Source: Bryobacterales bacterium (lineage in GTDB: Bacteria; Acidobacteriota; Terriglobia; Bryobacterales; Bryobacteraceae). Taken from it: a DNA stretch of 64,000 nt. The notes under the pieces were generated by a model. That model made no database searches. It was not told the origin of the DNA and saw only the letters and a list, made by a program, of their open reading frames with translations. Below are positions 7,302 through 21,718 of the stretch, in pieces. The DNA lies in contig JADZGD010000120.1 in assembly GCA_020854055.1 (NCBI GenBank), positions 1-64,000 on the forward strand. Reading direction: 5' to 3'. The number at the start of each line of letters is the position of its first letter. Position 1 is the first letter of the stretch. Made by a program: the position numbers and the translations under genes.

Positions 7302-8081
7302 ATGGCGATGTGGCGAACTCTTTTGACCGAACAGGTTGGCGAAACCACCATAGTTACCCTTAACCGGCCGCAACAGAGGAATGCACTGTCGCTCGCCCTG
7401 ATGGAGGAGTTGATCGCCTGCCTGGGTGAAATTGGCGGCGAGCCACGGACGCGCGCCATCATCCTGGCGGCTTCGGGCAAGGTGTTCTGCTCGGGTCACG
7501 ACCTGTCGGAGATGACCGGCCGCGGCGTGGCCGAATACCGCGAAATCTTCGATGTCTGCACCCAACTGATGACCACGATCCAGTCGGTGCCGCAACCGGT
7601 GATTGCCCGGGTGCAAGGCGTGGCCACCGCGGCCGGTTGCCAGTTGGTAGCCACCTGCGATCTTGCGGTTGCGGCTGAAACGGCCTCCTTCGCCACGCCC
7701 GGCGTGAAGATCGGCCTGTTCTGCACCACGCCGATGGTGGCGTTGACCCGGGCCGTCGGGCGCAAGCGCGCCATGGAGATGCTGCTTACCGGCCGGATGA
7801 TCGACGCCGCCACGGCCGCCTCCTGGGGACTCGTGAACCGCGTGGTTCCGCCGGACAAACTGGACGAAGAGGCCCATGCTCTCGCCGGTAAGGTGGCCTC
7901 CGCCAGCAGGTTCACCGTGAGCCTGGGCAAACAGGCCTTTTATGCCCAGATCGATCTCGACCAGGCCAAGGCCTACGCCTATGCCAAGGAGGTAATGACG
8001 ATGAATTCTCTAGCCGAGGATGCCCAGGAGGGGATCAGCGCGTTCCTCGGCAAGCGTGCGCCCTGCTGGAAAGGTTGCTAA
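7302..8081 (+). CDS. Crotonase-fold protein, ECHDC3-like enoyl-CoA hydratase homologue
   Basis: This 259-residue crotonase-superfamily protein has the oxyanion-hole elements (SGHDLSEM, VQGVATAAGCQLVA) and the ATPGVKIGLFC stretch seen in the ECHDC3 branch. In classical enoyl-CoA hydratases two glutamates do the chemistry, one after GGGC and one in the AxPE motif. Here the aligned positions read Q (AAGCQ) and G (ATPG). It is therefore doubtful that this protein hydrates crotonyl-CoA, and the substrate is unknown. It stands alone on the plus strand between galE and galU, with no fatty-acid oxidation genes nearby. Confidence 0.85.
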   Translation: MAMWRTLLTEQVGETTIVTLNRPQQRNALSLALMEELIACLGEIGGEPRTRAIILAASGKVFCSGHDLSEMTGRGVAEYREIFDVCTQLMTTIQSVPQPVIARVQGVATAAGCQLVATCDLAVAAETASFATPGVKIGLFCTTPMVALTRAVGRKRAMEMLLTGRMIDAATAASWGLVNRVVPPDKLDEEAHALAGKVASASRFTVSLGKQAFYAQIDLDQAKAYAYAKEVMTMNSLAEDAQEGISAFLGKRAPCWKGC

Positions 8082-8105
8082 CGCGGGGTGCGCCGCCAAG
8101 CGGGT

Positions 8106-8987
8106 TCACTTCTTCAGCAGATTTTCCAGGAACGTCCGGAAGCCGGGTCCGTAGGCGGGATCGGCCAGCGCAAACTCTACAAACGTCTCAAAGTAGCTGG
8201 GAAAGTTGCCGATGTCGTAGCGCCGCTCCTCCGCAGGCAGCCGGAACGCCAGCACCCGCCTACCCTCTTCACACAGCATTTGAATAGCGTCGGTCAATTG
8301 GATCTCACCGCGCCGGTCTGCCTCCACCCGGCGCAGCATGTCGAAGATCACCGGCGAGAAGATGTAGCGTGCGGCAATCGCCAGGCGGCTGGGGGCCTGT
8401 TCCGGCGTTGGCTTTTCAATCATGCCGCGCACGCGGAAAACGTCGCCTTTGCCCTCGGCCGGATCTACCACGCCGTACTGCGACACTTCTTCCAGCGGCA
8501 CTTCCTCCACTGCAAGCACACAACTGGCCCTTTGGGACTCAAACAGCTCTGCCATATGCCGCAGGGCATTCGAGGCGCCATTCATGCCAATGATGGAATC
8601 TCCCAGGGCCACGGCGAACGGCTGCTCGCCGGCGAAGCTCTCACCGCACAGAATGGCGTGTCCCAGTCCCTTCTGCTCGCTCTGGCGGGTATAGTAGATG
8701 CTCGCCGCCAGATCGCAATTTTCCAGGTCGCGCAGCAGCCCGGCTTTGTCGTTCGAATTCAGTACCCGAATTAACTCCGGATCGCGGTCGAAGTGATTCT
8801 CGATGGAACTCTTGTTGCGCCCGGTGATGAACAGGATCTCCGAAATCTCGTTGGCCACCAACTCCTCGGCGACATACTGCACAATGGGCTTACGCGCTAC
8901 CGGGAGCATCTCCTTGGGCTGGGACTTGGTAGCCGGCAGCATTCGTGTGCCGTGCCCGGCCACTGGAACGATCGCGTGTCGGATCAC
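8106..8987 (-). CDS. galU: UTP-glucose-1-phosphate uridylyltransferase
   Basis: This enzyme makes UDP-glucose from UTP and glucose-1-phosphate in the cytoplasm. The 293-residue protein has the bacterial GalU nucleotide-binding start (VPVAGHGTRMLPATKSQPKEM), followed by the KPIVQY segment and the ALGDSII metal/nucleotide site in the centre. Near the C terminus, GEIQLTDAI is typical of GalU. It is divergent from the pseudouridine synthase gene, with 55 bases between starts. With galE it forms a small UDP-sugar supply set. Confidence 0.95.
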   Translation of the reverse strand: MIRHAIVPVAGHGTRMLPATKSQPKEMLPVARKPIVQYVAEELVANEISEILFITGRNKSSIENHFDRDPELIRVLNSNDKAGLLRDLENCDLAASIYYTRQSEQKGLGHAILCGESFAGEQPFAVALGDSIIGMNGASNALRHMAELFESQRASCVLAVEEVPLEEVSQYGVVDPAEGKGDVFRVRGMIEKPTPEQAPSRLAIAARYIFSPVIFDMLRRVEADRRGEIQLTDAIQMLCEEGRRVLAFRLPAEERRYDIGNFPSYFETFVEFALADPAYGPGFRTFLENLLKK

Positions 8988-19529: not shown

Positions 19530-20720
19530 ATGCAACGGGATCCAAAGCTTCCAGGCACAATCGTCACGCCCTTTCTGGAGTGGCGGGCGCACCGGATTCA
19601 TGATCCGGTGGAGAAGCTGAAATTCCTGCGCCATGCCACCGCCCCGAAGCCCGTGCCAAAGGATGCGCCCCGGCCTGTCTGGAATTTCTTTCGCCGCAGT
19701 TGGCGATTCCAGGCCGGCGGTCTTGTCCTGGTGGCGCTACTGATTCCATCTCGAACGTTGATTACCGCCCGGGGCAGCTCCCGGGCGCGTCCGGCGGCCA
19801 CGGTTACCGAAGCCGCACCCCCTGTCATCCCCGGCGCCACGCCGAACGTCTGGCAAGTGGAAAAGACCGGCAGCTATGAGGTATACAGCAACGGCCTGCG
19901 TGTGGAAAATGAATACGCGACGGCAAACGAACCGCGGACCTACTATGTCTTTGAGCGGAATGGCAATTCCACCCAACCGCTACCGGACGCGCGCTTCGTC
20001 CCGGCGGGAATCGTCTACCATACCACCGAGAGCCACCTGGCTCCGTTTGAGCCCCAGCACACCAGACAGCTAAAGAGAATCGGGCGCTCGCTGCTCGATT
20101 ACGTTCGTCAAAACCGCTCCTACAATTTCGTGATCGACCGCTTCGGACGGGTATTCCGGGTGGTGCAGGAATCCGACGCCGCCTACCATGCCGGCAAATC
20201 GGTTTGGGCCGATTCCAACTTCTTTTACGTCAACCTCAACCACAGTTTCCTCGGTATTGCTTTTGAGGCCCAGACCAGCGCTGGCGATCAGAACCCGGTG
20301 GCCAGCCCCGCTCAGATTCACGCCGCCCGGGTGCTGACCGAAATGTTGCGTGCCCGTTACAGCATCTCGCCCGCCAACTGTGTCACGCATGCGCAGGTCT
20401 CGGTAAACCCGGCCAACATGCGGATCGGATATCACACCGATTGGGCGGGAAACTTTCCGTTTGCCGAGCTTGGCCTGACGGATAATTATGCCCAGCCGCT
20501 CCCCAGTCTCTATGCCTTCGGTTTCGGTTATGATCCGTCGTTTGTGACATCTACCGGAACCCGGCTTTGGAAGGGCCTGGAACTCGCCGAATCCCAGCTT
20601 CAGCAGGCCGCTGCCGCGGCGCACCGCCAGCCCGACGAATATCGGAAAATATTACGCAAGAGATATCGTGAAATGTTACGTGTCGTTGATAACAAGGGTG
20701 CCGAGGAGGATCACTCATGA
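19530..20720 (+). CDS. Membrane-anchored N-acetylmuramoyl-L-alanine amidase (Amidase_2/PGRP fold)
   Basis: This is a zinc amidase predicted to cut the muramyl-peptide bond of peptidoglycan. The 396-residue protein has a cytoplasmic N-terminal part of about 60 residues and one membrane helix (AGGLVLVALLIPSR). A linker follows, then the Amidase_2 domain (about residues 145-330). Likely zinc ligands are H in IVYHTTES, H in CVTHAQVS and D in HTDWAGNFPF. Its stop overlaps the start of the actin-like gene by 4 bases (ATGA), so the two are translationally coupled. The topology puts the enzyme outside and a tail inside. Confidence 0.85.
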   Translation: MQRDPKLPGTIVTPFLEWRAHRIHDPVEKLKFLRHATAPKPVPKDAPRPVWNFFRRSWRFQAGGLVLVALLIPSRTLITARGSSRARPAATVTEAAPPVIPGATPNVWQVEKTGSYEVYSNGLRVENEYATANEPRTYYVFERNGNSTQPLPDARFVPAGIVYHTTESHLAPFEPQHTRQLKRIGRSLLDYVRQNRSYNFVIDRFGRVFRVVQESDAAYHAGKSVWADSNFFYVNLNHSFLGIAFEAQTSAGDQNPVASPAQIHAARVLTEMLRARYSISPANCVTHAQVSVNPANMRIGYHTDWAGNFPFAELGLTDNYAQPLPSLYAFGFGYDPSFVTSTGTRLWKGLELAESQLQQAAAAAHRQPDEYRKILRKRYREMLRVVDNKGAEEDHS

Positions 20721-21718
20721 GTAAAAATGGAACCGCTTCGCCCATCGGCCTGGACATCGGTACCAGCCGCATCGTCGCGGCCAGCCAGTCCGATGGGGGC
20801 TATTCGTTTCAGTCCCAGTTGAATGCCTTTGTGATGTTGCCGTACTCGCGGATGACCGAGAACGTGCTGAAGAGGGAGAATGTGCCCTATTCGGTTCGCG
20901 GAGCCGAGATTGTCGTCCATGGCAACGAGTCGGAGAAGTTCGCCGCCCTGCGGCAGGTGGAGACCCGGCGTCCGATGACCAAGGGAATTCTCAATCCGGG
21001 TGAACCGGAGGGTCTCAACCAGATTCGCCAGATTATCACCAGCCTGGTGGGCGAGAAAGCCGCCCCCGGCCAGAAGCTCTGTTACAGCGTGCCCGCCGCG
21101 CCGCTCGGCGCCGATGAGAACCTTACGTACCACGAAGCCAGCCTGCGCCAGTTGCTGGTGCAGAGCGGATTTGAAGTGAAGAGTATCAACGAGGGCCTGG
21201 CGGTAGTGTATGCCGAGATGGAAGACTCCAACTACACCGGCATCGGCATTAGCTGCGGCGGCGGGTTATGCAATGTTTGCCTGGCCTACCTTTCGGTTCC
21301 GGTCATTACGTTTAGCATTGCTAAGGCCGGCGATTTTATTGATGAGAGCGCCGCGTCGGTTACCGGAGAGCTGGCGAATCGCATCCGGCTCACCAAGGAA
21401 GACGGTTTTCATCTGAACGGGCACCACACGAATAAGATTCACCAGGTGCTCGGCGTCTATTACGACGACGTGATTCAGACCCTGGTGAACGCGCTCAAGG
21501 AGACCTTCCTGGCTGAGCGCAACGTGCCACGTCTGGGCCGTCCCGTTCCGCTGGTGCTCAGCGGCGGAACCACACTGCCCGGAGGCTTCCGCGACCGCTT
21601 CGACAAGATCCTCAAGGAGTCCAATTTTCCGATCGAGCTTTCCGAAGTGCGCGTCTCGGAAGATCCGCTCAGCACCACCGCGAAAGGCGCGCTGATCGCC
21701 GCATTAACCGATATGTAA
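20717..21718 (+). CDS. Actin-like ATPase (MreB/FtsA/Hsp70 fold), novel branch
   Basis: This 333-residue protein has the actin fold motifs. Phosphate-1 is GLDIGTSRIVAAS near residue 11, the connect-type helix is SINEGLAVVYAEM, and the adenosine motif is LVLSGGTTLPGGF near the C terminus. The phosphate-2 loop is unusual: ISCGGGLCN instead of the common DxGGGT, so the aspartate is replaced. It has no membrane anchor. I cannot place it in MreB, FtsA, ParM or MamK. Coupling to the upstream amidase suggests a cytoskeletal element linked to cell-wall cleavage, which is an inference from context only. Confidence 0.8.
   Translation: MSKNGTASPIGLDIGTSRIVAASQSDGGYSFQSQLNAFVMLPYSRMTENVLKRENVPYSVRGAEIVVHGNESEKFAALRQVETRRPMTKGILNPGEPEGLNQIRQIITSLVGEKAAPGQKLCYSVPAAPLGADENLTYHEASLRQLLVQSGFEVKSINEGLAVVYAEMEDSNYTGIGISCGGGLCNVCLAYLSVPVITFSIAKAGDFIDESAASVTGELANRIRLTKEDGFHLNGHHTNKIHQVLGVYYDDVIQTLVNALKETFLAERNVPRLGRPVPLVLSGGTTLPGGFRDRFDKILKESNFPIELSEVRVSEDPLSTTAKGALIAALTDM

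Follow-up and report, generated by a model that had tools for sequence, protein, structure and literature searches.

How might an actin-like protein inside the cell take part in cutting the wall on the other side of the membrane? This question is raised by two overlapping genes in a 64,000-nucleotide stretch of DNA (hereafter the window) from a Bryobacterales bacterium, the first encoding a membrane-anchored amidase and the second a protein of the actin fold. Our analysis indicates that the two proteins very probably act together. The model in which the actin-like protein forms a filament, the cytoplasmic tail of the amidase docks on it and wall cleavage is thereby placed is, as a whole, our preferred reading, with a probability of roughly 0.6.

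Organisation of the gene pair

The features of the locus are as follows (all on the + strand).

19530..20720, +, membrane-anchored N-acetylmuramoyl-L-alanine amidase (Amidase_2) with N-terminal cytoplasmic tail; 396 aa; PF01510, E 3.7e-15
19575..19631, +, conserved cytoplasmic tail motif LEWRAHRIHDPVEKLKFLR, residues 16-34; putative site of docking on the actin-like protein
19713..19769, +, transmembrane segment (predicted), residues ~62-80; top hydropathy score 1.72 over a 19-residue window
20001..20399, +, Amidase_2 domain, residues 158-290; invariant H164, E246 and H287, with D304 just beyond
20703..20709, +, Shine-Dalgarno sequence GAGGAGG of the actin-like gene, read from the sequence; 7 nt before the ATG, within the amidase gene
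20717..20720, +, 4-base ATGA shared by the amidase stop and the actin start (cactcATGAgt)
20717..21718, +, Volactin/Mad28-family actin-like protein; 333 aa; PF25216 Volactin, 2.5e-80
20747..20767, +, phosphate-1 motif GLDIGTS; G11, L12, D13, G15 and T16 invariant, and G11, D13, G15 and T16 conserved family-wide
21239..21274, +, phosphate-2 position GIGISCGGGLCN; Ser179 where MreB and MamK carry Asp
21557..21586, +, adenosine motif LSGGTTLPGG; G283, G284 and G290 conserved family-wide

The initial annotation had described an amidase and an actin-fold frame joined by an ATGA, and both frames were found at these positions. A chance origin of the two frames is excluded, because they are conserved in about 100 relatives. 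Among 76 distinct pairs with the amidase upstream on the same strand, the -4 overlap occurs in 21 and other overlaps in 11. Promoter and terminator scans at the window gave nothing above chance, and profile matches to PIN_5 and Fer2 were rejected as below cut-off.

The amidase likewise has the described character, with an Amidase_2 match to PF01510 (56.8 bits, cut-off 26), one hydrophobic segment and an N-terminal tail that is basic (13 K+R vs 5 D+E in residues 1-61). The sequence of the transmembrane segment itself is not conserved. In an alignment of 17 diverse relatives the columns of H164, E246, H287, H302 and D304 are invariant; the catalytic positions are thus intact, their assignment as zinc ligands and catalytic residues being by analogy with AmiD/AmpD. 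The window protein aligns with AmiD (2bh7) over 207-291, and AmpD/AmiD is also the match for the predicted fold of a close amidase relative. It has the catalytic domain in common with the Amidase_2 enzymes AmiD, AmpDh2 and AmpDh3, but here that domain comes with a membrane-spanning segment and a conserved tail in the cytoplasm; to our knowledge, those enzymes are all lipoproteins or secreted.

The actin-like protein is a member of the Volactin family

The downstream product had been regarded as an unclassified actin-like ATPase. This view cannot be maintained, because the protein scores 270.8 bits against PF25216 Volactin (cut-off 35) over profile positions 3-321 of 321, which makes it a strong member of the volactin/Mad28 family. 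Plasmid-encoded haloarchaeal proteins are 37-38% identical to it over 96-97% of the length, a comparison made with proteins of Haloarcula and Natrinema; for the Haloarcula plasmid proteins the figure is 37.9% identity over 96%. This full-length homology to haloarchaeal members is accompanied by common phosphate-1, Ser-type phosphate-2 and adenosine motifs, and the H. volcanii genome, used as a control, is by inference above the PF25216 cut-off as well.

The three nucleotide motifs were present as first read, namely GLDIGT, the phosphate-2 variant and LSGGT. The altered phosphate-2 motif, in which a peculiarity of this protein had been seen, proved to be a trait of the whole family: S179 (GIGISCGGG) is kept throughout, haloarchaea included, and the change from Asp to Ser has already been published for Mad28 (PMC10653835). 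The serine could mean that hydrolysis is weak.

The protein shares the actin fold with MreB, but its score against the MreB profile is weak (PF06723, 11.5 bits, cut-off 27) and membership of MreB/Mbl was rejected, as was membership of MamK (NF040964, 26.2 bits against a threshold of 400). Canonical MreB is separately present in all 15 volactin-family genomes tested, which rejects the actin-like protein as an MreB replacement. A PDB sequence search with the window protein alone gave no match; for a close relative (L076), the solved structures most similar to the predicted fold are those of MamK, BeeR and MreB.

Two relatives have been characterised. Volactin of Haloferax volcanii (VolA), from the same Pfam family and with the same phosphate-2 serine, forms dynamic filaments in vivo and affects cell shape (PMC10869688). 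Mad28, known as the second actin-like protein in magnetotactic bacteria of deep-branching lineages, polymerises in vitro and in vivo (PMC10653835), binds liposomes and localises in dependence on curvature (PMC10653835, PMC12713370). Mad28 and archaeal volactin are one Pfam family, and in the open-access literature searched (no bioRxiv collection) we found no paper joining the two. The window protein falls within the Mad28 sequence family but lacks the MamK-containing magnetosome cluster, and Mad28 proper was rejected as its identity: no MamK was found above cut-off in the window's genome, and the neighbouring genes in the window are unrelated. In Ca. Magnetobacterium casense a volactin-family gene adjoins a MamK gene of 505 bits (L144:3763-6978); we took its product as Mad28 because of this position. 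With the window protein it shares 42.7% identity and the Asp-to-Ser change.

In the tree of the family, the base of which is without resolution, the window protein lies among amidase-linked proteins. Mad28 lies in one amidase-free branch (support 97/90), and the haloarchaeal proteins group with planctomycete and phage members, not with the window's clade, in another (100/100). The Mad28 branch is concerned with magnetosome positioning and lacks the amidase with which the window protein is paired. Haloarchaea have no peptidoglycan, and at the two haloarchaeal loci read no amidase partner was found, unlike in the window.

An alternative to a filament is that the protein stays monomeric and, as a nucleotide-dependent switch, stimulates or holds back the amidase across the membrane with no scaffold involved, in the manner of PilM acting on PilN or FtsEX acting on amidase activators. 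A single span plus a short conserved element on the cytoplasmic side has the shape of PilN-type signalling, the phosphate-2 serine could suit a slow switch, and tight translational coupling suits a defined stoichiometry. Against this, both characterised relatives form filaments (PMC10869688, PMC10653835), and the predicted fold is nearest to the MamK and BeeR filaments and MreB, not to PilM or FtsA. We give such a switch a low but appreciable probability.

Conservation and co-occurrence of the pair

Conservation of the gene neighbourhood, which the initial annotation had singled out for checking, extends far beyond close relatives. PF25216 matches above cut-off were found in 29 of the 61 nearest relatives, covering many genera of the window's own family, and in 15 of 297 Acidobacteriota genomes. 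When the specific amidase was sought by profile in the same 297 genomes, independently of the actin-like gene, both genes were found in 13, the actin alone in two (G060 and G138), the amidase alone in one (G140) and neither in 281 (Fisher p 8e-20, not corrected for kinship; both genes are held in eight families). The amidase of G140 is a fragment, 56% identical to the window amidase, in a genome with no actin above cut-off, and is probably what is left of a decayed pair. The fragment stands at a contig end (L198, G140:C90:1-4000) and is followed by an IS21-type transposase pair.

Among 112 distinct loci the amidase lies near the actin-like gene in 85, upstream on the same strand in 76, divergent in six and downstream in three. 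Linked pairs occur in Acidobacteriota, Steroidobacter, other Gammaproteobacteria and Desulfobacterota, and carriers of the two-gene unit are numerous among bacteria of soil and fresh water. A dependence of this clade's actin on the amidase would predict that the enzyme is still present where the genes are unlinked, with no such requirement in the Mad28 and volactin branches. This is what was observed: all seven genomes of the window's clade that have no neighbouring amidase carry one elsewhere, and in all ten genomes from other branches it is absent. One of these ten, a Geminicoccaceae MAG (L147), sits on a long branch near the window's clade and is a possible exception to the rule. Since the volactin and Mad28 lineages do without an amidase, the basic job of the family does not need one. 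Within the amidase-bearing lineages, inheritance of the two genes is conserved and mutually dependent, and their association is well supported.

The same distribution speaks to a further possibility, a mobile or defence-type module with the amidase as lytic effector and the actin as sensor. The patchy occurrence among Acidobacteriota (15/297) and the presence of a distant family member in huge phages would fit such a module. Its spread over many genera of the window's family and nearly half of the nearest relatives, the single copy that is the rule, and conserved neighbours among which, short of a scan with dedicated defence profiles, no recombinase or defence genes were seen all argue against it, and we consider it very improbable.

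A conserved motif in the cytoplasmic tail

Conservation in the cytoplasmic tail of the amidase is poor except in one element, E..[AS]..[IF].DPV.[RK]L[RK][FY][LI]R. The strict pattern is matched by 72 of 97 amidase relatives, and P26 and L30 are invariant in two alignments spanning phyla. Five amidase-bearing genomes searched with a profile of the motif yielded exactly one significant match apiece, in every case the amidase itself, and the actin-only genomes G060 and G138 yielded none. In a genome where the amidase lies on a different contig from the actin (G259) the motif is kept. On the sequence evidence, it is the natural candidate for a site at which the enzyme docks on the actin-like protein.

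Structure prediction gave a helix-turn-helix for the motif of a relative (L076, residues 54-79; pLDDT 79-94) with disordered flanks. In a relative the amidase, a stop codon and the actin lie in one frame, and the stop was read as Trp so that an artificial fused chain could be modelled; there the motif reached pLDDT 74-84 against 79-94 in the amidase alone, the two being compared on pLDDT alone. In the predicted structures the motif orders itself without the actin, and on this measure the fused chain showed no sign of docking. A search for residues that distinguish amidase-linked from amidase-free actins yielded only S17, L35, L161, C185 and L281; we name no docking surface on the actin, because these positions are too confounded with ancestry.

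These observations also have to be weighed against a reading without contact. The amidase and the actin could contribute to one process, be it cell separation, envelope remodelling or another, and be inherited together without ever touching, with the motif used for membrane targeting or for binding a third protein. That the motif is basic and is predicted to fold alone, and that its pLDDT was no higher in the fused model, is what this reading would expect. Its restriction to the amidase, being absent from the other proteins of the five genomes and from both actin-only genomes, and the keeping of the pair while gene order was rearranged, speak against it, and we regard it as unlikely.

Proposed mechanism and precedent

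A filament or switch inside the cell that acts on a wall hydrolase outside it, as initially suggested, is the best reading of the locus, because the pair is conserved, co-occurs when unlinked and has a conserved tail motif. From the joint presence and absence of the two genes it is probable that wall cutting on the outer side is steered by a filament within the cell. In the filament model, the ATP-binding actin-like protein would lie against the cytoplasmic side of the membrane, probably as a filament. Anchored in that membrane, the amidase would have its N-terminus in the cytoplasm and the catalytic domain in the periplasm, and its cytoplasmic helical hairpin (short form E..A..I.DPV.RLR[FY]LR) would dock on the actin. 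The filament, or its nucleotide state, would then determine the sites at which the wall loses stem peptides. Filament formation in amidase-bearing species is proposed by analogy with volactin and Mad28; binding of the tail to the actin, and positioning rather than activation of the enzyme, are what we infer for the pair. The likely process would be a localised remodelling of the wall, during division or where the cell has a defined curvature; in some relatives a neighbouring SPOR protein hints at a role in division or shape.

The closest known way of working is that of bactofilin and LmdC, in which BacA binds the N-terminal cytoplasmic tail of the bitopic M23 hydrolase (PMC10945521). The two systems share overlapping genes for a cytoskeletal polymer-type protein and a bitopic wall hydrolase, and the window pair is likewise a conserved gene pair of this type. 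Binding of tail to polymer has been demonstrated for BacA and LmdC, whereas for the present pair it is putative. Furthermore, the proteins are unrelated, an ATP-binding actin with an Amidase_2 enzyme here and a bactofilin with an M23 endopeptidase there, so that the window pair would work like bactofilin-LmdC without being a member of that system.

According to the initial annotation, no system with this pairing was known. No paper on an amidase paired with a volactin-family actin was found in the open-access literature searched (no bioRxiv collection), and the exact pair was not found described; the same logic, by contrast, had been published for bactofilin and LmdC (PMC10945521). The actin family and a precedent for the logic are known already; the pairing, its breadth, the tail motif and, in searches on the pairing and on the two characterised actins, the HU-actin form treated below were not found described. 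If the model is true, volactin/Mad28 actins would have a wall-directed role in ordinary bacteria, and the literatures on archaeal volactin and magnetosome Mad28 would be tied together. Bactofilin with LmdC would then also have an independent counterpart, another route by which a cytoskeleton inside the cell positions a wall hydrolase, and one that uses a nucleotide-binding polymer. The named strains Steroidobacter agaridevorans and Peristeroidobacter agariperforans (L135 and L136), both of which carry the pair, make the system testable.

Neighbouring genes and fusions in relatives

In several families the gene immediately upstream of the amidase specifies a membrane protein that has a SPOR domain (PF05036) at its C-terminus. 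The ligand of SPOR domains is glycan lacking stem peptides, which amidases produce at the septum (PMC6895207). The window has no SPOR neighbour, and its genome has three SPOR proteins elsewhere, together with one Amidase_3. The upstream SPOR proteins (L033:2880-4298, L035:4067-5047, L037:3555-4769, L044:3159-4397 and others) have an N-terminal CxxC zinc-ribbon-like segment.

In ten distinct relatives (L036, L042/L117, L043, L044, L112, L115, L118, L125, L132 and L139) an HU/IHF-type DNA-binding domain (PF00216) stands in frame before the actin, in all ten with no stop between. Because the HU start has no recognisable Shine-Dalgarno sequence and the internal actin ATG has GGAGG in all ten, the sequence suggests that a single gene yields both an HU-actin fusion and plain actin. 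An extended form of the model can be put forward tentatively. In it, the membrane-associated volactin/Mad28-type actin would dock the amidase by its tail and work in some lineages with a SPOR protein recognising the product of the enzyme, and in Blastocatellia-type relatives a long HU isoform made from two in-frame starts would help to coordinate nucleoid position with wall splitting; we hold this elaboration to be improbable.

Other arrangements were seen at single loci. In the amidase-free genome G060 the actin carries a fused response-regulator receiver domain (PF00072), and a MinD-type ATPase gene comes next (L041:5751-7442 and 7447-8358); a MinD-type ATPase gene also follows the actin at a further amidase-free locus (L145:4311-6687). 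At L128:772-2875 two volactin-family actins stand in tandem, with the amidase further downstream. The records of uncultured huge phages L156 (LR756511.1, 595 kb) and LR745208.1 (485 kb) contain volactin-family actins with 32-33% identity to the window protein. Finally, genes typical of the window's acidobacterial family occur in records titled Bordetella parapertussis (L095, CALQCC020000014.1), Arcobacter (L119) and Nevskia soli (L120), titles which look wrong.
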